Source of the DNA: Trichaptum fuscoviolaceum
Taxonomy: Eukaryota > Basidiomycota > Agaricomycetes > Hymenochaetales > Trichaptaceae
NCBI GenBank assembly: GCA_910574455.1
Contig: CAJSYZ010000003.1
Span: forward strand, 4,091,250-4,155,249
Length of the DNA stretch: 64,000 nt
Reading direction: 5' to 3'
Position 1 is the stretch's first letter; every line of letters starts with the position of its first letter. The notes under the pieces were generated by a model, which saw only the letters and a program-made list of their open reading frames with translations, searched no databases and was not told where the DNA came from. Made by a program: the position numbers and the translations under genes. Positions 38,562-59,982 of this stretch are shown one piece after another.

Positions 38562-41500
38562 GTGATGCTAGTATTTGTGAGGGGTTGAGGATGAGGTTTA
38601 GGCGTATGCTTTGTCGTGTTCCGCTCTTACTTTTCTTATTTCTTTCCATTTGTATGTCGCATCATGCATTACCAAAATATGACGCTGCTATTGTGCCATG
38701 CATAACTTGTATTCATATCTGAAGCTTCTGCTGGTTCTACGCAGCCCACTCTTGATCTGAACGGATATCTCCGGTAGGTTCATCTTACTGAAACCTTATT
38801 ACCGTGGGGCCTCTCATTCCCAAAGGTTTAAGTTGAAGCTCTTCGATAACTATATGTAACTATAACTCATGAGACCTGCAATGAATACAGCCAAAGTAGC
38901 AACTATAATAATAGTACTTTCATATTTATATAATATCCTACATTTTTTTCGACCAGAAATTCAGTAAACTTGTCCATATATTTATATGTCAGAAAAGACT
39001 TTGCGGATACGTCCTCCTCCAAACTACTCTGGGGCGACCTCCCGATCTTCAGCATCGCTAGGGCCGTCTTCCGTCGCCTCGTATGGTGAGAGATCGACCG
39101 GGACCTCCGAGAAGGATCAACAGGAGACCGGTCCTTAGGATATACCGATTCTGAAAATAATTCGGCTGTCTTTCACAGACGCGTATCTTAAGAGACAACA
39201 CTTCATCAGCATCTCGTCGGTCGTCGGAGGATTGGGATAATGTGTCGCCATAACTTCCACCCTTAGATTTATCGTATATGTCAAACAAGCCGCGGTGCTC
39301 ACTTGAACTAAGCGTTGAAGATGTGATGATCTACTACCGTATGCGCCGTAGCTAGATCGAATGCAACAAGACGACGATAAGGGTCGCAGTTGTTCTAGGT
39401 CAGTAAGGCCAGACGAAAGGCTTTAGTTCGATGGGCGATATGCTCAGCTGTGGGTTTGGGTAAGTCCTTGAGAAAGAAGGCTTCGTTCTAAACGAAGTCA
39501 TAGCAGTAGGCATTGGGATAACCATTGCAATTTCCATTGGTCGTAAACATAGCTCGTGCGAGGTAACCGTAGCTTCTGACAGTTGACGTCCCATAAGATT
39601 CAAGAACTCATGGAATTTGTTGTTTCTGAGTTCAAGGGGAGTGATTAAATGTCTATAATGAGACTGATGTTGTGATAATAAGACGTGTGAGAGCCTCTGC
39701 GCCCCAGACTGTAGGCGTTAATGCTGCATACCCAGTATCAGGTGATGAAATTTGATTTGAGTTCTAGATCTACAAGGTGTATCACGGCTTCCTGAGTTGT
39801 CAAGGGAAGACATCGGCGCCGAGAAATCTTCAATAGCGACCCCATTGGAAAACAAAAGATGCGATGGGTTTCTTAGTAGCTCCATAGAGTATATCCAGAG
39901 TAGTGGAAGCGGACAGTGTTGTGTGGATAGAGAGAGGCAATGAACATACTTCCTAAGAAACACAATAGAACCGAGGAGATAGAGCCGACCTTCAAACATT
40001 AGATACATCGATCGTCGCTCCCCTCCAGGATCAAAGGACGGCGCGAAGAGGTCAGATTCACGAGAGTTTGAAACACTTCGTGGACAAGGCATCCAACTGA
40101 CAAGATTATATTTGAAGTCCTTGAGAATCAAGTAGTATTAGCGGACTCTGTTGAGTTGAGTTCAATGAATCTCTACCCACCGTCATGCCGAATAAATTCT
40201 CCGGGAGATAAGAGCTCTGTAAAAGGGGAATCCAAGCATACGCACGATGTCGCGATTTCCGTCCGAGATGAAAAAAAGAACAAAGCTTGTACAAGGTTTG
40301 AGAACCTGATAGGCAACTGAGTTCAGAAGCCATTCAAAAGTAAATGTGCAAACCAATGTGCAAGTGCGGAAAACACCGCCCATTACCCGCAGATGCTTCT
40401 TGGACAAAAGCTCGGCAGATGGCTGAGCGCGACGATTGATAATTGGTGATCGTGAGCAATCGGGGATCCCGGACGGCACCCCGCCCATGGATGTCCAATC
40501 CGTCAGGCGTATTCCTAATTGAGCCATAGTAGGGTGCACGCCTGGATGCCTCTGATGTCGTTGAGGGGATGTCATTTGCGTTTGTGTATTCGCCGCCGCT
40601 ACTGCAAGTCGGTTTGCCGAAGTCTCGTAGCTCTAGCTCCCTACTCCTATCCTTCCGCCCCCATTTCCCCCGACGTCTTCACTGTCCAAATTTTCAGCCA
40701 CAGATCCTCTCGTACACAGACCTGTAACATACCGCTCTGGTTGCCCTGGCCGGCCCTCCTTGGCGCTGGGTACAAGTCCACTGGATCTCGACGACCACAT
40801 ACCCTTGCACAGGTGATTGACCCCTCAGATCATGAACATAATCAGGCTGCGACATAAAGTAGGAGTCATGCCGCCTTAAACTAGCTCCATCCAGAACCCA
40901 TCACCAGGGTGCGAGATAGCTGAGCGATGGGCATGTTGAAACATGTCATTCGGATCCAGTCAGGAGACAAGACGACCTCAGAGCACAACAAGCACAATGT
41001 ACGACCGCTTTGAATAGCTCATGGAATTCTCGAGTTCCGGCGATCACTGTTTGGAACTATCTGCCCTCTCGACATTGTGTTCGCAAGGTTTCAAGGAGAT
41101 GAAGTGCGAAGGGTTCAAGGCAGATCGCGTCTGACTTAATAACAAGGACCGCTCGTAATCTCTATAGTCATGCAGATGAAAAGAGGGGTAAGCTTCAAAG
41201 TGAATTGAGATGCGAAGCCAAGGAACTCACAATGAATGAGTGCACGTTCTATTAGGGCACTAGGCGCTAGATGCGCTATCATCAAACAACATCTCCACTC
41301 CTTCCATCGCACACGGAAAGAATCTAGGAGCGGAATCAATTGATGCCTTCCAATGCATCCCTCAATGAGTGCGAGGACCTTGAGAAAGTGGAAAAGTAAA
41401 CGAAATGAATGCGAATCAACTTCTTCGGGTTGTTGTATGTTCGCCGAATCTAAAGACATGGACTAGATGGCGAAATAAGGGAATACCGCAGACCAGGATA

Positions 41501-41572
41501 CCCTAAATCATATACCAATAAGGTATAATACACCCTCTTTAATTAATACACATAACTGGTATATACTATTCT
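38562..41572. other. Region without a supported gene
   Basis: About 3 kb from the RPL35 terminator region onward. Minus-strand frames at 39718-40131 and 40183-40575 are hydrophobic and could be remnants of a membrane protein, but no intact model or motif was found. Base composition becomes AT-rich after 41460, where the repeat island begins. Confidence 0.35.
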
Positions 41573-41943
41573 GGATTATCCCTTATACATGGATTATCCA
41601 GAATGACATGGATAATCCATAGTATAATATGATATAGTACTGCATTTCTGCTTTCAAAAGATGGATCAAGGATAGACATAGATTATACATTATAATAATA
41701 ATGTTAGTAGAAGCCTTAAAGTCAAAAGATGTTACAATTTCCTACTATGTCAGTGGCCCCCATTACTCTGAACCCTCTGCCCTATTTGTTTCTATTCTTG
41801 TCTTGCTCAGTCATCCTCCAATGTGACTCTCAATCCTCAACCAATCCAATGCTACACATGTACCCTTTGCTCTAACCCTCTGCCTACCGCTCTCACACTA
41901 TTAATTGTAGCCTATCATCTACTTTCTTATTGCTCTCTTCTTA

Positions 41944-42093
41944 GGGCCTGCTCGGATCCGGCGGTAGCGTCAGCTGGCGGGAGGGAACGAGGTATTTTCC
42001 AATTCAGTAGGCCGGTCTTGGCCTTGACTACCGCCTGCCAATTTCCATAAAAGGCTATCTGTCGCCGCACTACCGCTGGATACGAGCAGGCCC
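41944..42093. mobile_element. 150-bp Tourist-like (PIF/Harbinger) MITE
   Basis: The terminal inverted repeats are GGGCCTGCTCGGATCCGGCG at the left and, read on the other strand, GGGCCTGCTCGTATCCAGCG at the right, and they match at 22 of 24 positions when GTAG is added to each. The element is flanked on both sides by TTA (41941-41943 and 42094-42096), the 3-bp duplication used by PIF/Harbinger elements. It has no coding capacity. Confidence 0.8.
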
Positions 42094-42527
42094 TTACTCA
42101 TCTTCCAATATACTCTTGCTCTGCAGCTGCAGTATATAAACCCCTGTACTTAGCATGATCAAACTCTAAGTTCAATCTCCTTTGTCAAACCCCCCGTCTC
42201 AAATCTCTGCTATACATCTATTTATCTCCACTCCACATTGTAGGCCTTTGTCTATACAATGCTTAGTGTTGAGCCATAGCTCCACTATCTACTGAGCAAC
42301 TTAATGTTGTGTTCTCCAACTATACAAGACTGTAAGTTGAGACGTAACAACCGCAGCTGTCTTTTATCTTGGGACATTCTAGTCTGGTTCATGCATTAGC
42401 TTGTCTATTAGTATAATGATTTTCCTATAGAAGGAATACAAGACTGAAAGCAATGTCTCTAGGCTGACTGCTTTAGTAGAAGTAGAACTTCTATAAGATA
42501 ACTAATAAAGGAATAATCCAGTCTTGT

Positions 42528-42778
42528 ATGGATGATCCACAGAAATATGGATAATCCAATATAGATATGGATTATCCATGTACATATGGATTATCCACGC
42601 ACATATGGATTATCCATGCACATATGGATGATCCACAGAAATATGGATGATCCAATATAGATATGGATTATCCATGCACATATGGATGATCCAATATAGA
42701 TATGGATTATCCATGCACATATGGATGATCCAATATAGATATGGATTATCCATGCACATATAGATGATCCAATATTAT
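42528..42778. repeat. Tandem array of 19-20 bp units with palindromic GGATNATCC core
   Basis: Thirteen consecutive units each begin ATGGAT or ATAGAT and contain GGATTATCC, GGATGATCC or GGATAATCC. Two unit types, one ending ATGCACAT and one ending AATATAGAT, alternate in the second half to form a higher-order repeat of 39 bp. Three further single cores lie at 41573-41619. Confidence 0.9.
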
Positions 42779-43700
42779 GACCGTATACGGTTACGGCTTC
42801 TACTTACTATATTTAGTATATGTAGTCTTAATATAGAGTTATTTTACCACAATTTTGCAATCACGCGAGTCCAAGTCGGACATCATCAAGCCTCAAGACA
42901 GTGTCAACGCAACAAAACTTCAAGCTCTTTGCAAGATCCCTCTCTAGGTTGATCATGTAAATGACTCTTTATAATTATCATTTGAGGCCACAGATCTCAT
43001 TCATGGTTGTCATGGATCTAGGTCAGTTAGCCGATGGGCTCATTCTGGAGAGCAGCCTTGCTATATATGTATTATGATTTGAGACCGAAGAGGTTGTCAC
43101 ACTTCTTCCGCGCTGTGTTTCCCAAGAGAAGACCGATGTAAAGCCTGTCATCCCGCCTACATAGGAAGAAGTACAAATCACTAGCCTTAAGATTACGGCG
43201 AATGTTGGCGCGGTACAGGGTAGATTTGCGTCCAGAACATTGACGCCGAGTCCAAGCTCAAGTTTGGTTTGGTAGAGGTTGTATACTGCAAGTGGGCGTG
43301 GGCCAAAGACATGGTATGTGTCCTGCTCCTTCTCATCTTCTTGTATTATTCAAAAAGTAGATTTAAACCACGTCCCATTTCAATCGATGGCCAACCTCGA
43401 CACCTGACCCTCTATCGACGCCGACACTCCTGTCATCTACGCCACACGCTCGGACATGTCTGCGCATAAGCCTTTCAAGCAAATAACAAACTCGACTGTC
43501 GTTATAGGGGAACGATCGTGCATGTCATCACATGTATAGACAATACGCGCACAAAGTTGCGCAACGCAGCTTGTGCCATTGGAGACGCGAGCCTTATGAA
43601 GAAGACGGAGAAGGCTCAGATCAAGATATTATGTGAGTCTCAACACCAGTAGCTTTGCAATGCTTGAACTCACCATTTCACAAATTTTTTTGCTGGTTTA

Positions 43701-43835
43701 TATACCCGTATGACCCGTATGACCGTATTACGGACGTCCCGTACCCGTATGAGAGTCGCAACTTTTGTTTTACGGCCCGTATCCGTATTGAGCGGCAAAA
43801 AAATACAGCCGTGTGCGTATACGGTACGGTGCGGA
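43701..43835. repeat. CCGTAT-rich degenerate repeat tract
   Basis: Close-set, direct and inverted copies of CCCGTATGA, CCGTAT and TACGG occur over about 135 bp. A related short inverted motif (GACCGTATACGGTTACGG) sits at 42779-42796, just after the tandem array. It is probably part of a non-autonomous repeat. No boundaries were found. Confidence 0.5.
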
Positions 43836-44560
43836 GCCCTACAGTTGCGCTCGGCTTACATCCAACAGCCATACTAGGACGTGAGTATCAAAGAGAATGG
43901 CTCGGTGGCACCGTACCATCCCTAAGAGCGGCGAGGGAAAAGGGATCCTGTATGCCTTGGACTGGACTGCGGGCGGTCCGTAGTAGAGGCCCAGAGGAAG
44001 ACACGCTACGAGATGGCGGGCTGCGGCGATCTTTGTCAGTCATTGAGTATCGGTGATGGTGGATGCTGGTCAAGATGAGCTAGGGTGCAGACATGCTGCG
44101 GTCGTCCTTCTATGCTGATCGTGAGCTGGCTGGGCCTCAGTTCACGTTCATGCGCATGCGCCTATGGCCCGCAGCGCCATCGGAAAACCTGGACGTGACC
44201 CGCATTTCTTTGACCTCTCAAGAATCTTTGACTCACACCTTATTGCCTCCGTGCTTTTGTCCTCAAAGAAATCGATATTATCGACTGAGCACTCACTCTG
44301 AAATGCCGCTGAAAGCGGTGCGCTAAGCCACTTCAGGGCTCCAGCATTTGGTGTTCCGTGCTGGACTGGTTTCACCTTGTTTACATCTGTTCGAAAAAGA
44401 GGTCGTTGAGACTACAAAATAAATTAAATGATAGCAATAGACTTCGGTATGTGTGTAAAAAGATAACGCTTCCTTCATGCCCATCCACGGGTAGCGGGCT
44501 CTGCTGTGAGTGCACTCACAGCCTCTAACTGCTTGTTGTGCCAATGGGTGCCTAACTTGC

Positions 44561-44702
44561 AACACGACTTGGCGCGTGAATACCGTGCGCGACGCGACTT
44601 GACGCGTGACTACCGTGCGCGACACGACTTGACGCGTGACTACCGTGCGCGACGCGACTTAACGCGTGACTCGGTACGCGACGCAACTTGACGCGTGACT
44701 TC
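44561..44702. repeat. 30-bp minisatellite
   Basis: About 4.7 copies of a 30-bp GC-rich unit are present, with GACTTGACGCGTGACTACCG as its first 20 bases. The last copies diverge. The unit length keeps a plus-strand frame open as a 10-residue repeat (LTRDYRARRD), but there is no other sign of coding. Confidence 0.85.
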
Positions 44703-45606
44703 ACCGCACTGGTTGACGCGTCACCCTCACGTGCTTCCACTCCTCACGCGTGTGGAAGACGGACGATTGTGTCTTGCAATATTCATTTGAGCTAGCCGTT
44801 CCTTTGCTAGATTATCTATGGATGCAATGAATATTTAGAAGCATCACTGTCGCCAATCAATGCCTGGCACATTGAATGCTCCGTTGGTATCGCTTGAGTA
44901 GTGGTGATTGCGCAAGGGCATTGCAGGTGAGAGTGTGGCATTCGGAAAGAGCACTTACGAGGGGTGTGTAGCCTCCGGAGGAGTGCACCTTGAGTGGTGT
45001 TGGTCTATCTGGAGGAGCTTCAGAGTCTAGATAGTTGACGGCGAAAGCATGCGTGCCGGCGTCGTTGGTAAGAAGGGAACCTGGAGTCCGGTGATGAGTC
45101 CTCACAGCTCCGATGCATTGATCAACCTAATTTTTGCTCGGAGGACTAATACGGTTCACCATCCGCGGAGCGGCACAATTTTTTATCAAGGTTTGCCGCG
45201 TCACCGATGCGCGCAGGTCTTCTCCTGATTAGGTAGTTGATACCTCTCACAGGAGAACTTCAGGAAACCAAACAACAAGTGTACGGATTCCCTACTCATG
45301 ATTAGTTAGCGTAGATAGAAAATGCTCGTACGAACACGTACCAACTTCGTGCGTAAATTATGGTGTAGATTTCACTGCTATCGAGAATATATAGTGTATT
45401 TTCGAGCGTTTTTGAGCACGGCGCTCATCCTATTCTTATTCAGCGAAGAAGTACTTCGATGCGCTCAAGGCTTCATACATCACAAAACCCTGCATCTCTG
45501 CGTTGTTCTCTGTGCACATGGTTTCATTAGAATCACGAACTGTGCACAGATAAAAGGTGGACGTACGTTGTTATGCCACGATACCCCTTTATCATTTGAA
45601 CCATCC

Positions 45607-46960
45607 ATGCCTTTCCTCGCGACTGCAATTCTTGGTCCCATTCGACGTCGGCTTCGCCGTGACGGTCGAGGCGCATGGGTGTTGCGGTTGCTGGACATCG
45701 GGATGCCTGTAGCAGAAGCAGCGGCCGCTAATGCAGGAGTCCCTGCACCTAACACGGGGGGCTTGGTGGCCCAGATGATGGTAAGTGTTCTACCACTCAT
45801 TGAGACTTCGACAGACTTACTTAATTTAACAATTATCATAGCAGGTTCCCTCCGCACGAGATCGAATTGAGAATGTACGTGCTCGCGCAGCGAGCACTAT
45901 AGTTGAGTTCGAACATCGAGCTCCTCCGGCGGGGTACGACGAAGACGTTCAGCAAATGGTACAGTAAGTGCACGAAGTCGCAGTGAATTCTTACTTACTG
46001 TCCATTTTCTTACCTTTTTACAGGAATCTACATGAAGTTGTTGAGACATGCGAGGCCCTCCGACTAGTGTTGCTAAAGTTCAGTTCAGGATAGGCCTGAA
46101 CCGGGTTCGAACTCCGAACTGAACCAGGTTCAGGTTCAGGTTCAGAGAAATCTCAGATTTTGAACCTGAGTTCAGTTCGGGGTTCAGGCCTCTGGAGAAA
46201 TGCTGAACCTGGTTCGAACCGGGTTCGAACCCTGAACTTCAGGTAACTTTCCCACCCTTTAAAGATGGAAAACCTTATAGTTTGACAATTATAAAGTACT
46301 TAAAATGTCAATTAAAAGTGAAACTTATCAACATTAAGCAGAATCTATGTCTAGAATATACTAAATGTACTAAGGTTCATTGCTGAACTGAATTTGAACC
46401 CAGTTTGAACCCAGTTCAAGTGGGATTATATAACAAAATTTCCATATATGGTATGTACTAAGGCTTTCTAAAAATAGATACTTGAACCGGGTTCAAACCA
46501 GGTTCGGCCAGAATTTGGGCTGGCTGAACTGAACTGAACTGAACTTCGAGTTCAGTTTGGGGTTCAGGCTGAGGCTGGAAAATCTGAACAGTTCAGTTCG
46601 GGGTTCGGACCAAAAGGGGTCTGAACTGAACTGAACTGAACTTTAGCAACACTACCTCCGACAGGAGTCGCGCCTTGCTATATTTTCGAGGTTGAGTAGG
46701 ATCAGGCACTTTTTGGCGGGCGCGGAGACTATTCTGACGTTGTCTGCTTCGGAAATTGCGGTCAGTCTCTTTTCAGACGTGGAAGACTGTAGATACTTAC
46801 AGTGTCACTCTTTCAGAAACTTCGAAGCGACGAGCAGACAGCCGCTCTCCAGACTGTCACCACTGAGATTCGCAGGGCTTCGGCCTTCGAATCTCTTTTC
46901 TTCATGATTCTTTTCGTTTTTTTCATAATCTTCGCCCTCGTTTTTTTTACGTCTCATTAA
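45607..46960 (+). CDS. Tail-anchored membrane protein, unknown function, with MITE insertion
   Basis: Exons 45607-45780, 45845-45963, 46024-46066, 46647-46760 and 46817-46960 read as one frame of 197 residues if the MITE at 46065-46654 is removed as an intron (46067-46646). The chain starts MPFLATAILGPIRRRLRRDG, has an Ala/Pro-rich patch, then long amphipathic helices (VRARAASTIVEFEHR, IFSRLSRIRHFLAGAETIL) and ends in a hydrophobic anchor (FFMILFVFFIIFALVFF) with three polar residues after it. That topology predicts a tail-anchored protein facing the cytosol. I do not recognise the family. The first ATG in good context is 45607; the frame is open farther upstream. Without splicing, a stop appears within 14 codons of the insertion. 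Confidence 0.55.
46065..46654. mobile_element. 590-bp hAT-like MITE with 8-bp target-site duplication, candidate introner
   Basis: Perfect 24-bp terminal inverted repeats begin TAGTGTTGCTAAAGTTCAGT at the left and at the right (other strand). The element is flanked by CCTCCGAC on both sides (46057-46064 and 46655-46662), an 8-bp duplication as made by hAT transposases. The interior is full of GTTCAG/CTGAAC direct and inverted repeats, and no protein is encoded. Its third base starts GTGTTG and its end carries TTTAG ahead of the last eight bases. These sites would let the element be spliced from the host gene. Confidence 0.85.
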
Positions 46961-47796
46961 CTCGTTAGCTCAATCCTTATTGTGAATCTAACGAGTAGTG
47001 TGTTTGTGTAATATGCAATAAAAAAATGGCCACGCAAGAATCGACAATGGGTATGCTCGATTCAATCATGTCAGAATTCCGCGCTGGTATAGATTGTTTG
47101 ATGTCTGATAGGTTATTGACCTCATCTGTCCCTCCTGCGACTACGGTGCGACCTCTCTCGTCACCTAGATAGAATACGATCTCGGAGAATATTCACGTAG
47201 GATGTGCTGCTAGCCGCAATCTTAATTAAGCGTGGGTCAGGAAAAGACGTCTCCCAGAGGACACTGATGACTCACCTTACGAGTGCATCTGAGAATAGAT
47301 TCTTTCAGGTCCGTAAGCGCCCGGCAATTTCTACTGTACGATGATCTCTATCAGTGCGATTGGTGCGACATAATAAGATAGCGTTACCTGTGTTTAAAGC
47401 TCTGCTATCGACACTTCCTCGGCACTTCTCCTGCGACTGTTTTCTCTATTGCTGACTCCGCCTCTGCGTCTCTCCCTATCATAAGTTCGACGATATCTGA
47501 AAAGATCAGTAGACGAGAGCGAGCGTGAGTTATGTGCCATGCAAGTATACTGGAGTTCTTCATCTAATACCGAGGATGTACGATGGGCGTCTGCCCACTT
47601 CTGCAGTATAGATTCTGTTGGCAAAACGATGACGAGCAGTACATCTGAACGGTCCCCGTAGCTACTTATGTCCATGTTGCAGCGAAAGCTTTGAATGTAA
47701 AGTAGTATTTTGAGGGGCAAAAGACAGAAAGTAAATACATCAAGAACATAGACTACAAATACTCGTTTATATTTACACTAGAGTACAGGAAACTAC
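46961..47796. other. Intergenic stretch inside the island
   Basis: A 49-codon plus-strand frame at 47027-47173 (MATQESTMGMLDSIMSEFRA...) and a minus-strand frame at 47394-47720 with a basic Arg-rich end are open. Neither has recognisable similarity. They may be small element genes or chance frames. Confidence 0.3.
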
Positions 47797-50700
47797 TCAG
47801 AGTTCATTATCTACACGGGATCTTTTGTTCGGGCGTTGACCCGTAGTTTCTATCTCATTAGATATAATGTCTCCTGAACGCGGTGTACATGAACCTCCCC
47901 CACTAGATGATAGAGAAGCGTCAAGGGTTGTCGGAATTGAGTCTGATTCGCTCTCAATTCTGAGAGCCAGCAAGAGGGCTATGCGTTCACCCTCGTCTTC
48001 ATCTTCCGAATCCATATCCATATCGTCTTCAGAGTCGTCCGCTGCTGTCCCTGCATCATCAACATTGCGATTGTCTATCATCTCCGGTCCCCAAGGAGGT
48101 AATGCATCATTGGTACCCGATATTCTCATATGTCGCAGAGTTGGCTCCCAATCATAAAAGAGTTGGCGCAGTAACTGCATTCTGTGTCCAATGAGGTACG
48201 ATAAGGACTCTTCCCTACATCGTGCTAAATAGAGATGAGCGTGTCTTCATGCTGAATAAGGGGAACTACGAACTTGCGCGATCAAGGGCATTCTTGTGTT
48301 TCTGCCATTCTTCCGTAAACCATTTATGGAGCGCTCGTCGCTCCTCCATCAGGCGTCGTGTCTCTTCCTCGCATCGGTCCCTCTGTTGCAACCATTTGAT
48401 GCCTTTCCTCACATTCGCATCTCGCATCCAACGAGCTAAGTCTGTTCCATCCTCGTCTGATAATCCCAAATCCAACCAGACGTCGGAATCAACGTCCATG
48501 ATTACCACGTCTTCAAACTGCAATTGGATCGGTGCTACAGCTCCAGCAGGTGCTTTCCCCTTATTGATAAGGTCCGCAAGACGTTTACAATGCGAATTGT
48601 ACTTGTTGACGTCTGACTTCAGCGACGATTCCCGTTTCTTCACGTGTGTTTCCATCTCTCGATACAATTTGTGCTCTGAGCAATAGATTAGCGTTGGCGG
48701 AGACTGAGGCACGTATTGGCACTCACTGTTGACTTCTCGCATGTGTGGGCGCTGTATTTGTTCGACCTCTTGGCGTCTTCCGAAACCCTTGTTTCGTATA
48801 CGTAGAAGGACATTCATAGCGTTTGTTCAATGCGTAAGAAACTCCTTATGATCACGTAATACTGCCACGGCGTTTTGTGCAGTGGGGTCACCGCCAATCA
48901 ATGTATAAAGTCGCGAGATCTTCTTTTTCATCTTGTCAATTTTCGCTAATGTATCTGCGCGGATGTACTCGGTATCCTCCGCTGTCCTCGTACCTGCTTC
49001 CAGTCCCGACGTAACATCCTGAAGTATAGCATTCATGGCCTCTAAACCTTGCTCTGCTTGCAGAATCTCATCAACTGTCTTCTGTCCAGCATTCTTATTC
49101 TCCCCTGGATAAGTGAATTAGCGATAAGAAGAATTGACAATTATGGCGACTCACGGGGTGCCTTTTTCGATTGATGGTTGACTTGGTTTTCCATCTCCTG
49201 TCTAAGTTCTGACTCGGGTATGTTACAGTGGAGTATTCCATCTTTCGCCTCTTGGTACAATTTCTCGCAATGCCAACGCCGGGAGACGATCCACTGTGCC
49301 AACCGTCGCCGAACTAGATCATTGATATACTGTATCTGTTCATCAATCAAAAGAATTCGCCTGTGTGTCTGAGCTGTAACATTAGTTCTACGCCGTAGTA
49401 CCCAATTAATGTGTACGTACTCCACTGACTCTGCAAACCGGGATGAGGAACTTTAATTGACTCCAGACTCGCTCGCACGCTTCTCCGTCTGTCAGCCCGA
49501 ACCCCTCTCGCTTCCTTGGATGATACACTAGTTGACATGCCCATTGGTGTCCATATGCGTGGAAGATAGACACGGCGAAATCAATACGTGATAGATCCTT
49601 CCCCAAGAAGTCCCACTTAATGCAACTCAGTTCAAGCTGACAGCCTATGTCGTATAGAAGCCCTATCTTCATGGTAGGTGGAAGATGCTCCAGAAGAGCT
49701 CGAATAGCAGCAATAGCGTAGAATTGGCATTCTCCAGGTGTACGCATGTTGATAGCAAACAAGACTATCCCGTGACGGCAGGTAGACACCATCAATCCCG
49801 TGTCGTCGAATATGTCCGCGTTAGCTTTAGCTCGACTCTCATCCATAGCTTTGAAAGAGCCTTCGCAACCCTCGTAGTGTTTTTCGTGCATCTTCAACGT
49901 CTTTGCCTTGCTACGAGGCTTGCTCCTACGCTCATTGACTAAACGTTCTGCTTCGTCTACGTTTGATTTTGAGATGAAATTGCTATCCACTATGTCTAGT
50001 GGAATGTCGCTTGGTCGTTTAATACGCTTCAAAGTGAAACAGCAGTCCAACGCCATTTGAACACTTGGTATCGAAATTCAGTTATATGATCATGAACAAT
50101 GGACGAGCACTATGCGCACCTCTCATTACATTCTCCGCCAAAGCACGCCGGACAACGCCTTCGCAAGTAATCGCTGGGACGGTCGCGATCGTTTGCCTCT
50201 TCGGGTGTGTTCGATGATAGATCTTCGCTTGGCGACGGTTCCACGTCATAAGATAATGTACTGGGCGTTACAGGATCGATACGAATATTTGCAGCTTCAT
50301 CGTCTTTTGACATTGCGATGTAGTTCGAAATGCGTGTTTCCGCCCTATCGCGAAGAATGGCAAACCATTGAAGTGCCGCTGCGAATCGCTTCCTCAAAGA
50401 GTCCTGGCATGGCGTCAGTGCTTGTTCTACCAAAAGAGATTGGACAACTAACTATCTTTGGTACATCATACGATAATTCAGAGAGAAAGCATTGAAAACT
50501 TTGCACGAAGCCGGTCCGATTAGGGGCTAAGTGGAGAAACATAAGTTGCGCTAATCGCAACAGTTTCATGGACACAGCCAGCGACGGATGCATTGGCGCG
50601 TTCCCGAAAAGTCCACGTTTTAAGAGTTGGAGAGGGGCAGGATTGCATTGGCAGATGTCTAAGCTTATGCTTTCGATTGCTATACAGAGAAACCGATAAG

Positions 50701-51293
50701 ACTCACGAAAGGGTAGGGAGAAGCATGCGCCACATACAATCAAAGTGAAGGCACAAAACAGTAAGCCTTCTGGGTCTACATACGCAGTTACCCGGCGAAT
50801 TTACCGTAACCTCCACGGGGTCCCTGAGGTAATGTGTCTTCCACATGAGATCACAAAAAGGATTCACTAGAGCAGGAATAATTTCTGTCCTCCATCGCGT
50901 CCATTGCGCGATCTTCTTCTGAGTATTCCTCGACGTGACGGTCTCTTGTTGTTGCAGAATGCGAGAAGCATCAGGAAAGTATGGATGTTGATCAAAACTG
51001 TCGTCCATCATCGGCATGTCATTCAATAGTGTTGGCATATCTTGAGTACGTTCTTCACCAATTTTAGTGCGCATTCGCGATCGAGCCTTACCCCTACGAG
51101 AAGGTGTAGCCGCAGGAGCTGCCACATACGAGTTGGACAAAGTGGAGCAACGAATTTGGCCAGGTTTCAGTCGTGACTTCTTGCTGCGGTGGTGAGGCAT
51201 CGGAGGGGCGTTTACAAGCTTCTTCGCTGGGGATTGAGCTCCGCGCTCTAGCTCAGACACTTTTCGACAAGGGGTCTTGACTGGACTAGACAT
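47797..51293 (-). CDS. KDZ (Kyakuja-Dileera-Zisupton) transposase, one in-frame TGA
   Basis: Eight exons are in phase throughout: 51293-50738, 50658-50453, 50403-50120, 50063-49421, 49368-49155, 49104-48727, 48675-48270 and 48181-47797, making 1023 codons. The N-terminal part has the cysteine cluster found with KDZ transposases (NCVCRPRRLTVLCLHFDYIC, then QCNPAPLQLLKRGLF). SDYLRRRCPACFGG leads to the catalytic core: QMALDCCF with the first Asp, GLLYDIGCQLELS with the second, FAVSIFHAYGHQWACQLVYH, and FGLTDGEACERVWS with the Glu. The C-terminal helices and acidic tail are normal for the family. Codon 727 (48829-48827) is TGA where the frame otherwise runs on cleanly. Either the gene carries one nonsense change, or the product is truncated after the catalytic core. 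KDZ enzymes are predicted to be DDE-type cut-and-paste transposases with an RNase H-like fold. Confidence 0.9.
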
Positions 51294-51725
51294 GGTTTGC
51301 AGACGTTAGTAGAGCGTAAGAGTACAGACCATAGTCAACTTACGGGTCTTCGTCGAACCACCTTCCTCGACTTAGACGAGCCACATTCCTCGACTTGTGG
51401 TTTGGAATGGAGAGGACCACACACAGAATCTATGCGAAGCCGTATCAGAGCAGTGAGTCACATTTTAGATTATGCATGTACTTGATAAACACTTACTATG
51501 CTAGACAACAAAACTGTACAACCGCGAACCGCAGATGGTAAATTAACAGCATTTAACGTATTTACATAGGGGATAACCATATAGACACATCTACATATAT
51601 ACGAAACACAGTCCACAATTGTCTATTGTTTCAACGAGGGAGGGACTGGTAAAGGAAGAGATGGTATTCGGCTGAAATACTTGACAAAGGTCTGGATGTA
51701 AAGTTCCACAAGTGTGCGCAGAGCT

Positions 51726-54078
51726 TCACGAAGTTGTTCCTTCTCTGACGGGAGAACAGAAGGTAAGTCTATCATTGAAGGAAGCTTTCCATTCCTTCAT
51801 CACGTCCCTTAGAGCTTGAACCGATTTTGGTTCCAAAGAGTCCCCCCAATATTCTTCGACAAATGAGTTTGTGTCAGGGAAGAGGGAAAATTCTCCGCGA
51901 GTAGGGCAACGAAATATTTGGCGAAGCAGAGACCAATGGAGGCTACGCTCATCCTTTGACTTCGGGACGGTCTGAGCTAGCATCATTCCATCAAGAGCGC
52001 AGAATTCCACACGAAAAGATATCTCATTCAACTCCCATTGAATTTCTTGACGTAGACATTTGTCATGACGGATCATGTCAGGCGAAATATGTTGTCCACG
52101 CCAAAGGGGTCGTAGGGCAGGGTCATATGAGGGAAGGGCGTACTCGCTGGCAAACGTAACCTTCATGGCAGCCAAGGCAGCTCTTTTGGCTTTTTTGGAA
52201 GGACGGACTTCGTTTTCTGGACGCGGGTCTAAGGAGGTTGATGGACGGTCTTCCAAAGTGTCATAAAGGCGGGCAACGGATTCTGACGCATACTCTAAGG
52301 ATACAGGCTCAGTTTTGCTGTAGTTGCCAACCAATACGCTTGACCATTCCCCGAGTCGGCGGAAAATGGGAGTGAAAGTTCCGCCACGGATAAGAATGCG
52401 AAGTAGAGCAGGTCGAATGTTCAGATAGTTATGATATAACTTTACGGTCTTGTCTATGTCTGGGTGGACGAGCAGAAAACCGGGTGGCATGGCATAGAAG
52501 ACAGGCGTATTAGAGTCCTTCTCTATTTCGCCAAGAGACAATAACATTTGTCGAAAAATGTGATCATGTAAGGGGGCGTCAGGCTGGCAATCAATGGGGC
52601 TGTCTGGGATGAAAAGGTACTGAGACCGAGGTCGGTTGAGCTCGTGATGCGCACGTGCCCGTTCCTGCTTGCGTAACAAGGCCTTCTTTGATGCCATGGG
52701 TCTGGACCGCGCCGGTGATGAAGTATGAGATGAGGGTACCCGAGCCGGCGTACGAGCTGTTTGATGAGTGTCCCGAGACGACGAATTCGACGAGAATAGC
52801 GCGGAGATGGGGTGAGTGGAAGGCTGGCCTAAAAATATCTTTTCCTCAGCTTTGATGATTGCTACGAGCTGTCTCATCCCCTCATCCGTCCATACATTAT
52901 CCGAAATACTGCGGAGATCGTCCTTGACATCGAATGTACCGAGTACAGGTCTCTTCTCGTCCTTATTGATGAGGAAAGGAGCGTCGCAAAGATAGTCGCT
53001 TTCGGTCCAATCAACCATGCGATGGGCAACCTCGAATATTTTCGTCTCACGAGTAATAGACGATGGTGGACGGATGTACCAAATGGGGATACCGATACTG
53101 AAAAATGTCAAGACGACAGCGGGGTCTCGGGAAAAGGCTCCCCGGACCTTGAGTAGCGGATAGGGCGCAGGTAACAATGATTGCAAACGGGGTAATACAA
53201 TATTAGAGAGATTGTTGATGCCAATCAATTCTAAGGCCGCGCGCTGGACCTCGCGAAATGTTGTAAGATTGAAGAACCATCCCGTAGCCACGGTCCTCAT
53301 GCGGTCCATAGCTCCGCGGCCGCGTCTCTCGAGTTCGACCAGTAAGCGATTGAGTTCCGTTTCTCCTGTTTTGGAGTACGATTTCCTTGCATTCGCAAGA
53401 CTCAACTCGAATGCGCGCGTTAACGCGTCAAGATATCGTTTCTTGAACAGTCCAACCGGCTGGCCCAGGGAATCAACGCCTCCCCCCACGACTTCTACGT
53501 CCGCCTCTGTGGGAGCGTACCATAGTACCTCGTCACCCTCGATTGAGCTAGAATTACGAAACCGGAATGGTATAGTTGAATGATGGAGGGTGGATTTGGT
53601 ATGAAATTGAGGCCAACGGCTAAACTCCTGTGGGCCCAAAAGACCGTCGGAACGAACAGATATTCCCTTAATCATGTCTATTATAGGGACGTGCGGGACC
53701 CAGTGTGCGTTTGGAGATGTTATAGCGATATGGGATAACTGATAGGATATGCGCCCATCATAGGCACTTATATCCACGTCCCTAGCTTCAGCAACATGTG
53801 TGGTTAGGAGATGTCAAAAATGACACAAAAGCTCAACTTACATAGACCATGTGTTACCTGCAGAGGACTCATCTTCCCCGCAAGCTTGATTCAAACACAG
53901 TAAATTTCTCCTATTCTCAGATAAGAAATCATAAAAAGTTTGAATATGGATAGAAGTTTGAGCTTACCGAGCGGAAGAACCGTACAGATGCTCCTTACCA
54001 GCGTAGTCCGGATGAGCACGTATAGCTGGTACAGAGAGATTTGATCTGCACGATCCGTATCTAATGGCAAACCCACTA
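51726..54078 (-). CDS. Large unrecognised protein next to the KDZ transposase, 5' end not found
   Basis: Three exons (54078-53968, 53884-53858, 53785-51726) are in phase and give at least 731 residues. The first exon begins in mid-codon, so at least one more exon lies upstream. I see no known domain. The chain includes WVPHVPIIDMIKGISVRSDG, a long helical part (KKRYLDALTRAFELSLANAR), GWFFNLTTFREVQRAALELI, a basic Ser-rich hinge (SRPMASKKALLRKQERARAH) and a folded-looking second half (FRRLGEWSSVLVGNYS, YALPSYDPALRPLWRGQHIS). The single last exon of more than 2 kb is unusual beside the fragmented host genes and fits an element-borne gene. It is co-directional with the transposase (432 bp apart) and divergent from the next gene. 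A role in transposition is only a guess from position. Confidence 0.6.
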
Positions 54079-54941
54079 CTGGATTAACGAGACCTGCCGA
54101 AAATCTTCACGTGCAATCCTGGTTATGAAAAGAAAGAATGAGAATCTATAGAAATCGAAACATATTAAACAACCTTTGCTATAACGGTGAATCAGAAAAC
54201 GTCGCCTTGAATAAAAACAAAATTAGTGACGGAAAGTGCATCTGAGTCGATACACAATGCACAGACGGGGTGAGCTAGTGCACACCAACAAGTCTATGGC
54301 CTCATCGTGGGCTCTAGGCTCACGAACGAGGACTTTAACGAAGAAGAATATGATTGAGGCAATAGGAAGGGAGGGAACGACTGATGTGTCAGAGAGGGGA
54401 TGGTGTTATGGGTGGGAAGTACTTGCGTGCGCCCGCGCTACTAGTAAAGTAACACGTCATGAGGGCGCACATCTGTCTTTTACCATCATCAACTCCTTTG
54501 CCTCCACACAATGCCGCCCTCGATTCCCTCGATTCCCTCTGCTCGCAGAGCTCCAGCTGGTGTTGGGGCTCTGCAACTGCCATTCGTCTGCCTAGAGCTG
54601 GCGATCTGGCGGGATGAGTTCTACTGTTGGTCATGTTTGCATTAGCCAGCAGAACGCAGTATCGACTTCTTATCTTCGATGACCCCGTATTCATCTTCAC
54701 ACAATCCGTGCATACAATACAAGATGGACATTTACAAGGTGAGCTCAATTATGTTGTCATTGCATTTGCATCCATATTCCAAGTTGCCAATCACGCCTCT
54801 GTGGTTGTACATGCATAACACCCACAAATTTTCTCATTTCAAATACCACAACCACATCTCTCTCTCTACATAAAATGTTTCCGCAGTCCACTCCTCTTCA
54901 CGCAACTACTTACCTTACTGCTTCACAGCGCAAACGTCCTA
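54079..54941. promoter_or_regulatory. Gap between two divergent element genes
   Basis: These 863 bp must contain the missing 5' exon(s) of the minus-strand gene and the promoter of the plus-strand gene. From 54600 on the sequence is AT-rich with TATA-like runs, for example near 54867. No exon could be fixed. Confidence 0.4.
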
Positions 54942-57863
54942 ATGCCTCAAAAGAAACGAAGGCCAGCCGCTACCAACGTCCGTGTCTCCCAGACCGGTAA
55001 AGCGATAGAGCAACCGAGCGAGCGTTCTAGGCGTGCGATGAAACGGGCTCAACTAGCTGAAGAGACGGAAGTGGTCAGCACCAACAAGGTTAGGAGAAAA
55101 TCGTTAATATTTTCTAAATCATTTCCTGACGCAAATTATCGCACAGGATCCCGCTCTCGCGACAGATGAAGGACCTGCGTTGCCACGTCAGAGAGGGAAA
55201 AGAAGAACGAAGAAAGGAGCAACCGACATTGAACCAACACATTTGGCTGCCGCTAGCTCTGGTTCTATTTCGAGGAACGAAGCAACCCCTGTCATCACGG
55301 GAGCGCGGGGCCAGGCCGAACCAAACGAAGTTCCTGGAACAGGCGACGTGGATGCCACCGAAACAAGTACGGTAGACTGTGGCGATACTATTGTAGACCG
55401 CAGCGAAGACAGAACGACGACGCACGCTAACGAGACCAGTAATGTCTACCCCAGCGAAAACGATGGCTCCAATTCAGACGAAGAACCCGCAGACGTTGCT
55501 TCTCGGTCACCCTCGCCAGACATAGCAAGCGATTACGAGGAAACAGATGCTGCACGGAGGAGAAGGCGCGCAAATCGACGATACGTTGAGCTGGACACTG
55601 ATGAAGAAGATGCCAATCTGGATCGTGACTACGTAGACGAGGTAATGGGTGATGACAACGCGACGCAAGTAATACGGAGAGATAAGCGTGGAGGCGGGGG
55701 AGGTCGCGGGGAGTCCGACGAAGAAGATAATGACGACGACGACAACGGTGACGACGACGACGACAATGGTATAGATGAGGTTGACTATCAAATAGTTCCT
55801 GGCCCTCTTCCAGCGGAAATTGAAGCGAGGATAAACAACTTGTTCGCGCGCACGCTTCATGAGGCTCAATCCATCGCACGGGATGCGCGAAAGAAGCCTT
55901 CGCAGATACTAGACATGATTATATTGTCTAAGGAGAAGACATTACGCAAAACGTCGCTCTGGGACAAATATCAGGCGTGGTACAGCGCGAATGTCGAAAA
56001 TTGCAAAAAAGGTATGTCTTGTTTCACATTTCGTTGTCGCAGCTGAGTAATATTGCTTTAGACTCGGGCTGGCATAGACGGTGCTCAGAGAATTACAAGA
56101 AAATGAAGAAACTACCGTCGGAGGAGAGGGAGAAGTTGAAGAAAGAAATCGAAGAATTCTTTGAAGGGGATCACAAAAAGGACGATCGTGTTGTGAACAA
56201 GGCAGCATCAGTTAAGAAGGTTGTCAACGAGTTGATCAAGAAGGTATGTCATGTAATTACTTTGATTTGCATTGTAGCTGATTCAGTAGCTCCAGTCTCA
56301 CGAATACTTCGTGAAGCACGACATATATTGCTTTGGATATGTCCTAACCTTTGGGGTGCACCAGGCGACGGAAGTGAAGCCGATGATGTTCTGTGGAGCA
56401 GATCCGCTAATGGACGTGTTCCAGAGAGGAGGTTTCCCACTAAGCGACCAAGCTCTCTATGATATTACCACGCAGCTCAGGTTAGTCGTCCCCTCGCTTT
56501 CATTTCAGAAAACCTTGACACAGCTGGTCGAATAGAGAAACGCACAGGAAAGCCCAAAAAGGAAAGTCACCTGCGACAGCACCTAACACGCTGAGTTATG
56601 GCCTACGATTGACTCCTGCAACACTGAAGGCCTCGCGGGACGCGTTGGATGCGTTGCTCTTAGCATATATAAAAAATGGAATCGGTAAGCCAATGAAAGT
56701 TTACATACGCCAATACTAATTTAGTCGAACTAGCTCAAAACTCATGCCGCAATGAAGCTGAGAGACACCATTTTCTGACTACAAAACGTATGCAATGGAA
56801 AGACGCGGAATCAGTGTTCATTGAGCATCAAGTTGTCTTGATGGACTGGCCTAGTGACCTTAGTGGATCCGCACAAATTCCAGGCCCAAATTTCGCGAAA
56901 CGATCGCTGTCGAGAGATAATTACTGTGCAATTTTCAAACCGATTGTTGACTGGCAAGAAAAAGGCGGGTTCACCGAAGAAAAGTGGGGACAAATGTTGA
57001 GCGAGGCGAACGCGAAAAGGAACGCACTCGAAGCTGCTCAGAAGGAAGGAAGGACTCTCGACTACACCGCGGTAGACTGTGCTCCTTCAATGCGTCCGAT
57101 CCTCTGTGTGGTTCCTTGGCCCGATGGTTAGTTTCGCTTCTTCGTTTACTTGATCGGTCGCTAACAAATCTAATGCAGAGAAGAAAGATGCTGATATCGA
57201 TACACTGGTTGGAATGGCCCTTGTTACAGACACAAATGGCGCGGGCCGTCTATTCGTAACACGCGAGAAGCTCGAACGTACGCAAAAGAAGAAAAAGGGC
57301 AAGGGCAAAGGCAAGGGCAAAGGCAAGGGCAAGGGCAAGATCCACGCTCAGAAGCAGGAAGTAATTGATGTAGATGCTCAAGATCCATATCCTTTAGACA
57401 CGCCGCCTTCTCCCCCTCGACCAGACGAGTCCTCCCCCGCACCTCCTTCCCATATGGCCCCTTCCCCTCTCCCCACCGCCTCTGCCCCCTTGTCCTCTCA
57501 CGCAGGTCCTCGACGCTCATCAACGCAACCGCCCTCGCCTTCTTTGGCTTCTAAACGCATGCGCGAGGAGTCGCCTGGAGATGTCGATGACATTCCAAAT
57601 AAAGCTGGTCCGTCGAAACGACCTCGAACCGCTGGCTTTGTTGCTGAAGCAAACGATTCCTGTGTGTTGAGTTCAATGTTAGCCGCACAAATAGTTAAAC
57701 TGATATAGAGTTCTTACCAGCTGCCACCGAGACTGCCACTGCCACTGCCACTGTCATGGCCCTTACCAATGATTTGGTTTTTTCATTAGCGAAGCAAGTT
57801 GAACAATTAACTGCTGAGGTGCGGGATATGCGCAAGAATGGTCAACGACGTGAACCTGCTTGA
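54942..57863 (+). CDS. Large unrecognised acidic/basic protein of the KDZ island
   Basis: Eight in-phase GT-AG exons (54942-55088, 55147-56011, 56062-56243, 56290-56480, 56524-56684, 56725-57126, 57179-57661, 57721-57863) give 857 residues. The N-terminus is basic and low in complexity, then strongly acidic (EEDNDDDDNGDDDDDNG). A central alpha-helical block (TSLWDKYQAWYSANVENCKK then YKKMKKLPSEEREKLKKEIE) looks like a diverged HMG-box, though this is weak. A conserved-looking part follows (MFCGADPLMDVFQRGGFPLS, PGPNFAKRSLSRDNYCAIF, TLVGMALVTDTNGAGRLFV). The C-terminus has a Lys-Gly run (near 57298), a Ser/Pro-rich stretch, a basic nuclear-localisation-like KRMREE/KRPR pair and a short terminal coiled coil. 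The make-up suggests a nuclear chromatin or DNA-binding protein. I know no family name. It is divergent from the preceding gene. Confidence 0.65.
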
Positions 57864-58137
57864 AATTATTTTTATTTTTTATTCTTTCCGTTGTGGCTTG
57901 ATTTTCTTTTGTCGTAGTCTATGTTCTCACAAAATAGGAGCTATGTATATGTGATATGTATTTACCAAGTACATAAGAATATGATCTATTGCTAGAATAT
58001 TATTAAGTGCAACAAAATACAGAATTATTCAAGCTGATTATAGCCGGATAATAAGGATCCTTGCTACTGCCGAACCACAAAACCAGGGTTGTCTATGTAA
58101 GCCTGTGCGTGGATGACCACATGGTCATGTGGCCCAT

Positions 58138-58492
58138 GGATGATCCAGAACCAATCCATGTGGCTCATGTGACTCTGGATCATCCATGCCACACGGACAA
58201 TCCAGCATGGTTCAGGCTCTTATGGATCATCCAGATATGCATGGACAATCCACAAGAGCCTGGTCAAGTGTGGATGATCCATTTAAGTAAGGATAGTCTT
58301 GACCTAAATGGATTGTCCACATTACATGGATAATCCACGATTGCCTGGATAATCCAATGGTCCTGGACCATCCATACTTAAATGGATTATCCTCTTATAT
58401 ATATTACAACCTACATTTTATTAATATTTAATTCATGGATTATCCATTAATATGACACCACTAAGCTATATTTATTGGCAATGGACCATCCA
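58138..58492. repeat. Dispersed cluster of palindromic GGATNATCC-type cores
   Basis: About thirteen cores, such as GGATGATCC, GGATCATCC, GGACAATCC, GGATTGTCC, GGATAATCC and GGACCATCC, lie 8-40 bp apart, most followed by A. The spacer sequences differ, unlike the left tandem array. Several local inverted repeats arise (ATGTGGC/GCCACAT-like pairs near 58125-58190). Confidence 0.85.
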
Positions 58493-58495
58493 CAC

Positions 58496-59982
58496 TTTCC
58501 TATACCATTTATGTATATCTATCTGTAGTTCTTTGTTACACCTTAGAGGTGTAAATGAAGGGTATCCTGTACTGAATACCGAAGCATTCACAAGGGTAAG
58601 TGCTGGCTGCAGCAGCAAAAAAAATCCGGCTAACAAAACAAAACTGGTTAGTTTAGTACCCTATGGCCCAAGCGTCATAGCCACAGAGAGGCATCTCGTT
58701 AAGATACGTGTAATGACGACAAAACCTTGAAGTCTGGGATTGTGTATGGTGTGCGTTAGTTCAGTGCGTTACAGATAAGATTGTTAGGTTAAGACGCACT
58801 GCAAGCCTCTGATATACATGCCAGCAGTCCATGTCGCACATAATATACAAACTCAGGCTCGAGAGCGACGAGACGAGTGTATAAAATGTGGTGAGCATCT
58901 GATTGTTGTTCCGAACGCAGCAAGTTCCGAATGCTTATAATACATATGAAGCTCTTGAGATATCGATATATCATTAGGCTCACTTGCTCAACTTGAGCTA
59001 AGGTTTTCCAGCAGAGACAATGACGTGCCTCGTCCAATAGTGCCTGTCCAGTGAGTCTCTACGCCACAGTGTTGTTCAGCTGCCTCTCTCGCTGTCTGTT
59101 TGAACGATTCGAATAGAGCATTAGACGAAGCAGAGTCCTGCAACCCCAAATACCATGACCAAACGCATGAATTTCATTCGTTACGATTCCACAACTAGAC
59201 ATTCGCAGATCTAGATGAACTTCAAAGTTCATAGTATCGCAGTAAGTGTCATGGTTATGGCATATGTTTCGTATTCGAGATTATGCCAGGCTTACCTTGC
59301 GATTTGACAATTAGAAGGATGACCGACACATCAAGATGAGCATATCCCTTGATCCTTCCTCTTCGATGGTGTACGATATGCAGTTTCACCTCATCCGACC
59401 TTTATGACAATGTACAACCCAAGCACCAACTCTCGATCGCGTTCTCGTCGGTAACGTAGTTCAATGTGATTGATCACTGGCAATAGTCGCCAACTTTCCC
59501 CAGAGATATAAAGTTACAGCCAAAGCGATCGAAAGACGGCAGCATAATAAACCCTTGCAACGTTTGAGAAAAGAAAGACCTGAGGGCAACCTGTGAATCG
59601 GCGGCGCATTGACGTATTTAAGGTTCAGCAAAGTTCAAGTTCGAGTTCGGACCGGCGGCCCGGGACTGACTTCAACTACAACTTGAAATTGAATGAAAGT
59701 AGACTACCGTGACATACATAGGAGGAGTAACATACGAGAAAGAGTAATCAAGAATAAGATCGGAATGGCGATCAAAGCAACCCGGAGTCCAAATACAACT
59801 TTACATACATGAAATACTACGAATATTATAGTAGTATGGGGCGGACTGGTGGCAAAAATATAGCATAAGAGGGCAGGTTAGCACGGTGTTCCCCAGCTAA
59901 GGCTTTCTGGACACGTCGATTTCCGGTCGTACTAGATATTTTGATAGATCAATAGGATATGAGACCATTGCTGAGCTATCCT
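58496..59982. other. Right flank of the island, no supported gene
   Basis: About 1.5 kb. It contains a stretch rich in AAGTTCAAGTTCGAGTTCGG-type repeats at 59630-59700 that resembles MITE interior sequence. No terminal repeats could be paired. No coding exon was seen. Confidence 0.35.

Follow-up and report, generated by a model that had tools for sequence, protein, structure and literature searches.

The window, by which we mean the whole stretch of 64,000 nucleotides of Trichaptum fuscoviolaceum DNA that was analysed, holds at 45607-46960 a gene of 191 codons in four exons, separated by introns of 64, 60 and 56 nt, and the third exon is interrupted by a MITE. The initial annotation had already placed the MITE in a coding exon, which is exon 3 of this gene, and had made no mention that the exon lies inside a 17.1-kb transposon. 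The features needed to follow the argument are these.

41482..41488, plus strand: left target duplication of the large transposon, AATACCG
41489..58574, no strand assigned: large DNA transposon of 17,086 bp with termini CAGACCAGGATACCCT and CAGTACAGGATACCCT; homologue at C10:2785540-2802219
45607..45780, plus strand: cargo gene exon 1, from the gene model, the identical protein from C10 and the paralogs
45845..45963, plus strand: cargo gene exon 2, from the gene model and the C10 copy
46024..46760, plus strand: cargo gene exon 3, split by the MITE; its empty form measures 139 nt
46057..46064, plus strand: target site duplication of the MITE, copy 1, CCTCCGAC; present once at the C10 empty site
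46065..46654, plus strand: MITE copy, 590 bp, non-coding, with abundant GTTCAG/GGTTCGAACC subterminal repeats
46065..46088, plus strand: left 24-bp terminal inverted repeat, TAGTGTTGCTAAAGTTCAGTTCAG, whose outer 16 bases do not vary among the 22 copies
46067..46646, plus strand: hypothetical GT-AG intron, predicted, with donor CTA/GTGTTG and acceptor ACTTTAG/C
46631..46654, minus strand: right 24-bp terminal inverted repeat; no variation at the last 29 positions in any of the 22 copies
46655..46662, plus strand: target site duplication of the MITE, copy 2, CCTCCGAC
46817..46960, plus strand: cargo gene exon 4, encoding a hydrophobic C-terminus and the stop
49406..50056, minus strand: open frame with a KDZ transposase domain (PF18758, E 6.1e-53), convergent to the cargo gene
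58575..58581, plus strand: right target duplication of the large transposon, AATACCG

The terminal inverted repeats of the MITE are perfect over 24 bp and are flanked on both sides by an exact 8-bp duplication, CCTCCGAC, at precisely the positions first assigned to them; across the whole window this is the sole perfect 24-bp inverted pair with identical outer 8-mers among pairs up to 3 kb apart. A wider search for copies with 8-bp duplications, as the initial annotation had suggested, was made in the assembly that contains the window (59.09 Mb in 12 contigs) using the 24-bp end with up to 2 mismatches, and returned 44 end matches, which make up 22 elements when paired; the reversed pattern that served as the control gave 0. 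An exact 8-bp target duplication borders 17 of the 22 copies (the exceptions being L004, L017, L018, L020 and L022), the length is 589-590 bp in 18 of them, and divergence from the family majority sequence runs from 0.5 to 6.1%, the window copy standing at 1.53%. The element is thus short, non-coding, multicopy and uniform in length, with inverted ends and target duplications, as is characteristic of the MITE class, and the paired elements, the exact duplications and the low divergence from the majority indicate a real and fairly young family. The majority sequence has just 17 CpG sites, and 43 of the 60 C>T or G>A changes that separate copies L001-L012 from it lie in CpG; this bias is a mark of cytosine methylation decay. 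One copy (L022:1501-2373; C6:828781-829653) extends to 873 bp, its two halves being separated by about 283 additional bp. There is also a second non-autonomous family, related to the first and 1,229 bp long; it is represented by two copies with 99.7% identity, both bordered by an exact 8-bp duplication (L024:1501-2729, from C2:2598049, and L025:1501-2729, from C2:1950029), and its ends, TAGTGTTGCAAAGG, are 73-78% identical to those of the MITE. Two inverted pairs of TAGTGTTGCAAAAG ends, 1,370 bp each (C7:1013976-1015345 and C9:5070808-5072177), probably form a third group with similar ends.

Some of the MITE copies have landed in other mobile elements or repeats. Six of them lie inside retroelement reading frames (L003, L005, L009, L013, L014 and L021), the retroelements being Tf2-like, which together with the short introns and the many KDZ transposases suggests a mushroom-type basidiomycete; L010 sits in the same retroelement repeat as L005, and L004 and L019 sit in a repeat common to both. 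Including the copy in the KDZ transposon, 10 of the 22 insertions are in mobile or repeated DNA. At the other 12 sites the flanking pieces tested carry no Pfam domain; repeats also occur in the flanks of L008, L012, L016, L017 and L020 among these 12, and L002, L007 and L011 cross open frames of 150-441 aa. Within the 40 flanking ORF pieces chosen for the scan, a subset of those enumerated, no copy (0 of 22) could be assigned to a host exon that encodes a Pfam domain.

The same genome also has an uninterrupted copy of the gene, at C10:2797147-2797902. It had been predicted that removing the element together with one copy of the duplication restores the reading frame, and C10 carries exactly such a site, with one CCTCCGAC, no MITE, and aligned flanks whose identity is 98.2% to the left of the site and 99.7% to its right. 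The C10 copy encodes an identical protein of 191 aa from DNA with two synonymous differences. In nine paralog loci of greater divergence (34-49% identity over each matched stretch) exon 3 likewise has no insertion, and, given this and the empty C10 site, the MITE insertion is derived and recent. In the unspliced window copy the frame meets a stop 9 codons past the insertion point, within the 14 codons of the original estimate, leaving 120 residues against 191. Excision at C10, rather than insertion at C3, where the window lies, is disfavoured as the C10 site is perfect, with a single duplication and no footprint. We also rejected the possibility that C10 is an allelic copy, as outside the 41489-58574 block the two places share no related DNA. 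Nor does the assembly give the impression of containing two haplotypes: the chaperonin family PF00118 gives 28 exon matches in 10 places, and no two of these places have matching score and range, the two measures by which they were compared.

The similarity between C3 and C10 is not confined to the gene. Identity spans the window from 41489 to 58574, both copies end at the same bases, and beyond these limits there is no similarity between the two, the outside flanks being unrelated. The termini of the block are inverted (CAG...CTG; CAGACCAGGATACCCT and CAGTACAGGATACCCT are identical at 14 of 16 positions), and the flanking duplication is the 7-bp AATACCG at C3 and the 8-bp TGATTCGA at C10. A transposon of about 16.5 kb without the MITE is therefore present at two unrelated places, the copies as they stand (window 41489-58574 and C10:2785540-2802219) spanning 16.7-17.1 kb. 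With a PF18758 transposase, defined ends, 7- and 8-bp duplications and independent sites, the block has the properties of a KDZ transposon, a type assignment that is loosened by the 7-bp duplication in the window as against 8 bp at C10. A short tandem array with a unit of about 60 bp, made of CGACTTGACGCGTGACT-type repeats, occupies 44559-44740 in the window, and the two transposon copies, at C3 and C10, appear to have different numbers of its unit.

The 191-residue gene is mobile-element cargo in the window, and a recurrent, although not constant, partner of KDZ genes. A protein database search with its product matched only the window's own reading frame and returned no annotated relative. 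In a second, diverged group the paralog again has a KDZ transposase as its convergent neighbour (C7:1941781-1946984 and C1:4154313-4159512); these two paralogs, at about 1.946 Mb on C7 and about 4.159 Mb on C1, are 99.65% alike, with the KDZ transposase about 4 kb away. That the gene is not always linked to KDZ follows from 7 of the 9 other distant paralog loci, where no KDZ match was found within 40 kb. These seven form three near-identical groups (99.8-99.9%), namely C3:5282982, C3:5536064 and C2:92347; C1:17382 and C2:124331; and C7:5396775 and C12:152003, and at least five of them are no more than about 152 kb from the end of a contig. Such a distribution would suit a host gene that was segmentally duplicated together with a neighbouring KDZ gene and is not cargo at all, a reading that we consider improbable, given that the block has inverted CAG...CTG termini with a different short duplication at each place, that its outside flanks are unrelated, and that the pairing of gene and KDZ recurs in the diverged group. 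The superfamily of the MITE itself leaves more room for an alternative. Elements of the hAT superfamily have the terminal consensus (T/C)A(A/G)NG and the target duplication consensus nTnnnnAn; the MITE ends, TAGTG in 22 of 22 copies, agree with the former, the 8-bp target duplication has the length usual for hAT (exact in 17 of 22), and the duplications have T at position 2 in 8 of 17 and A at position 7 in 7 of 17, a lean that fits hAT although the preference is weak. A 14-base end pattern, allowing 1 mismatch, was used to scan the genome for an autonomous partner and gave 65 places (33 forward and 32 reverse, against 12 and 5 for the control), of which 44 are the 22 elements, 4 are the two inverted 1,370-bp pairs and 17 are single ends. 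The hAT-dimerisation domain PF05699 has at least five matches in the genome, from 7 scored candidates, and none of those five is within 190 kb of a TAGTGTTGC-type MITE end. Neither the end-pattern scan nor these PF05699 matches yielded a transposase with the MITE ends anywhere in the genome, so that hAT is the likeliest assignment and not a demonstrated one; the element is probably hAT-like, as first proposed. The scarcity of hAT domains, together with 115 exon-level PF18758 matches that make KDZ transposases abundant in this genome and the 8-bp duplications that the cited part of PMC12730594 gives as usual for Zisupton as well as for hAT, would also be compatible with a MITE of another superfamily that makes 8-bp duplications, for example P or Zisupton/KDZ. 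We regard this as a lesser possibility, though a real one, as the sole KDZ element that we delimited ends in CAGACCAGGATACCC, unlike TAGTGTTGC, and as the TAGTG ends and, weakly, the T2/A7 lean of the duplications fit hAT. A hAT-type transposase most likely moved the MITE, and it is a hAT source that we infer here.

The remaining alternative is that proposed in the initial annotation, in which the spliceosome uses the GT at 46067 and the AG at 46646, which lie within the inverted repeats, and the MITE has thereby become a new, introner-like intron of 580 nt that adds six codons. Our recomputed translation agrees that removing 46067-46646 keeps the frame, introduces no stop and leaves 18 nt, the six codons LQHYLR; the splice would also work in either orientation owing to the symmetry of the inverted repeats. 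The same 18-nt remainder would keep the frame open in 8 of the 10 crossing frames examined. It is, however, a fixed property of the MITE ends, with a prior chance of about 1/3 of being divisible by 3, and 6 of those 10 frames belong to retroelements, in which the frame neutrality holds equally. The splice signals were compared with 15 introns of one gene family. The candidate donor scores -1.78, below all 15 family donors, which range from 1.1 to 9.2 when scored leave-one-out with a weight matrix built from the same introns, a yardstick whose edges were set by eye from paralog alignments and which may favour consensus donors. In the window 59% of 3776 GTs score at least as well, and the candidate ranks 27 of the 40 GTs at 46024-46699; its score is not that of the usable 5′ splice site which an introner should carry. 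The acceptor, at 3.0, is ordinary: 23% of AGs score as much or more, and the family acceptors span -4.5 to 8.2. No CTNAY branch motif is present in the last 100 nt of the candidate intron, against its presence in 14 of the 15 family introns, a contrast of little weight given that CTNAY is also absent from 52% of random 100-nt stretches of the window; the stricter CTRAY occurs in 8 of the 15 family introns and in 0 of the 3 introns of the window gene copy. The non-consensus donor and the lack of a perfect branch site had both been conceded from the outset. At 580 nt the candidate is about ten times as long as the family introns (50-79 nt), while it falls inside the range of median introner lengths, 30-654 nt (PMC9860276), and introners of Aureococcus give a precedent for an element that carries both splice sites (PMC9860276). 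The outer bases of the MITE are invariant in 22 of 22 copies, as is expected of transposon ends in any case. Among the 22 sites, of which 12 have no Pfam domain in the flanking pieces scanned, none was seen to coincide with an intron of a recognisable host gene, and 10 are in DNA that is mobile or repeated. The positions of the GT and AG that leave 18 nt would be a chance placement, with no sign of splice-site function. On sequence grounds we consider it very unlikely that the MITE acts as a new intron and is spliced, even partially, at sites within its inverted repeats, and the claim that it created one finds no support in its donor, its branch region, its length or the positions of the other copies.

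We propose a model for the locus that most reasonably fits these observations, namely that a young hAT-like MITE lies in exon 3 of the cargo gene of a KDZ-type transposon and has probably inactivated that copy, a reading that we hold with considerable confidence. A non-autonomous DNA transposon, most likely mobilised by a hAT transposase, inserted recently into exon 3 and duplicated 8 bp of target in doing so. Protein read through the insertion would end at 120 residues instead of 191, and the uninterrupted copy of the same large transposon remains on C10. The GT and AG near the MITE ends belong to inverted repeats that are expected to be recognised by the transposase. We infer that the interrupted cargo-gene copy has lost its function, most likely through truncation.

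The MITE shares with hAT-type MITEs a short, non-coding body, TAGTG inverted ends, 8-bp duplications and a uniform length (18 of 22 copies at 589-590 bp); it differs in that no hAT transposase with these ends was found in the genome. Maize Ds1/Ds insertions, which are hAT elements, have reportedly been spliced as introns. They too are non-autonomous elements in an exon with potential splice sites near their ends, whereas the sites described here are predictions made from the letters alone. The scheme of the initial annotation is that of the Aureococcus introners, elements that bring both splice sites with them and add 4 bp together with an 8-bp duplication (PMC9860276). Both have the 8-bp duplication and both keep the frame, with a hypothetical remainder of 18 nt here and 12 there; the present case differs in its very weak donor, in having no copy shown as an intron and in that its splicing is hypothetical. 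Among fungi, the cited part of PMC9860276 describes introners without duplications and inverted ends, and introner-like elements are reported in Dothideomycetes in the portion of PMC4457414 used here. Literature searches of titles and the starts of abstracts gave no hAT MITE with splice-site ends in a basidiomycete. The large transposon is best compared with the KDZ (Kyakuja-Dileera-Zisupton) elements of Agaricomycetes, which, in the part of PMC12730594 that deals with them, carry TET/JBP cargo genes. The likeness extends to the KDZ transposase, the CA...TG outer ends, the 7- or 8-bp duplications and the extra gene inside, with 7-bp duplications and CA..TG ends attributed to Kyakuja in that part of the source (PMC12730594). 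The cargo differs, being here a protein with a hydrophobic C-terminus and not a TET/JBP enzyme, and two Kyakuja families are described there as lacking inverted termini (same part of PMC12730594), which in the present element exist and are identical at 14 of 16 positions.

The locus offers a clean case of nesting, a young MITE within a gene carried as cargo by a larger transposon, and the empty site is preserved in the same genome. It also lends itself to testing whether an exon can tolerate a hAT-type element whose ends resemble splice sites. Were the MITE to be spliced after all, transposon-made introns with duplications and inverted ends would extend to fungi, as set against the fungal introners in the cited part of PMC9860276, and the locus would represent a DNA-transposon introner in a fungus, caught beside its own empty site within one genome.
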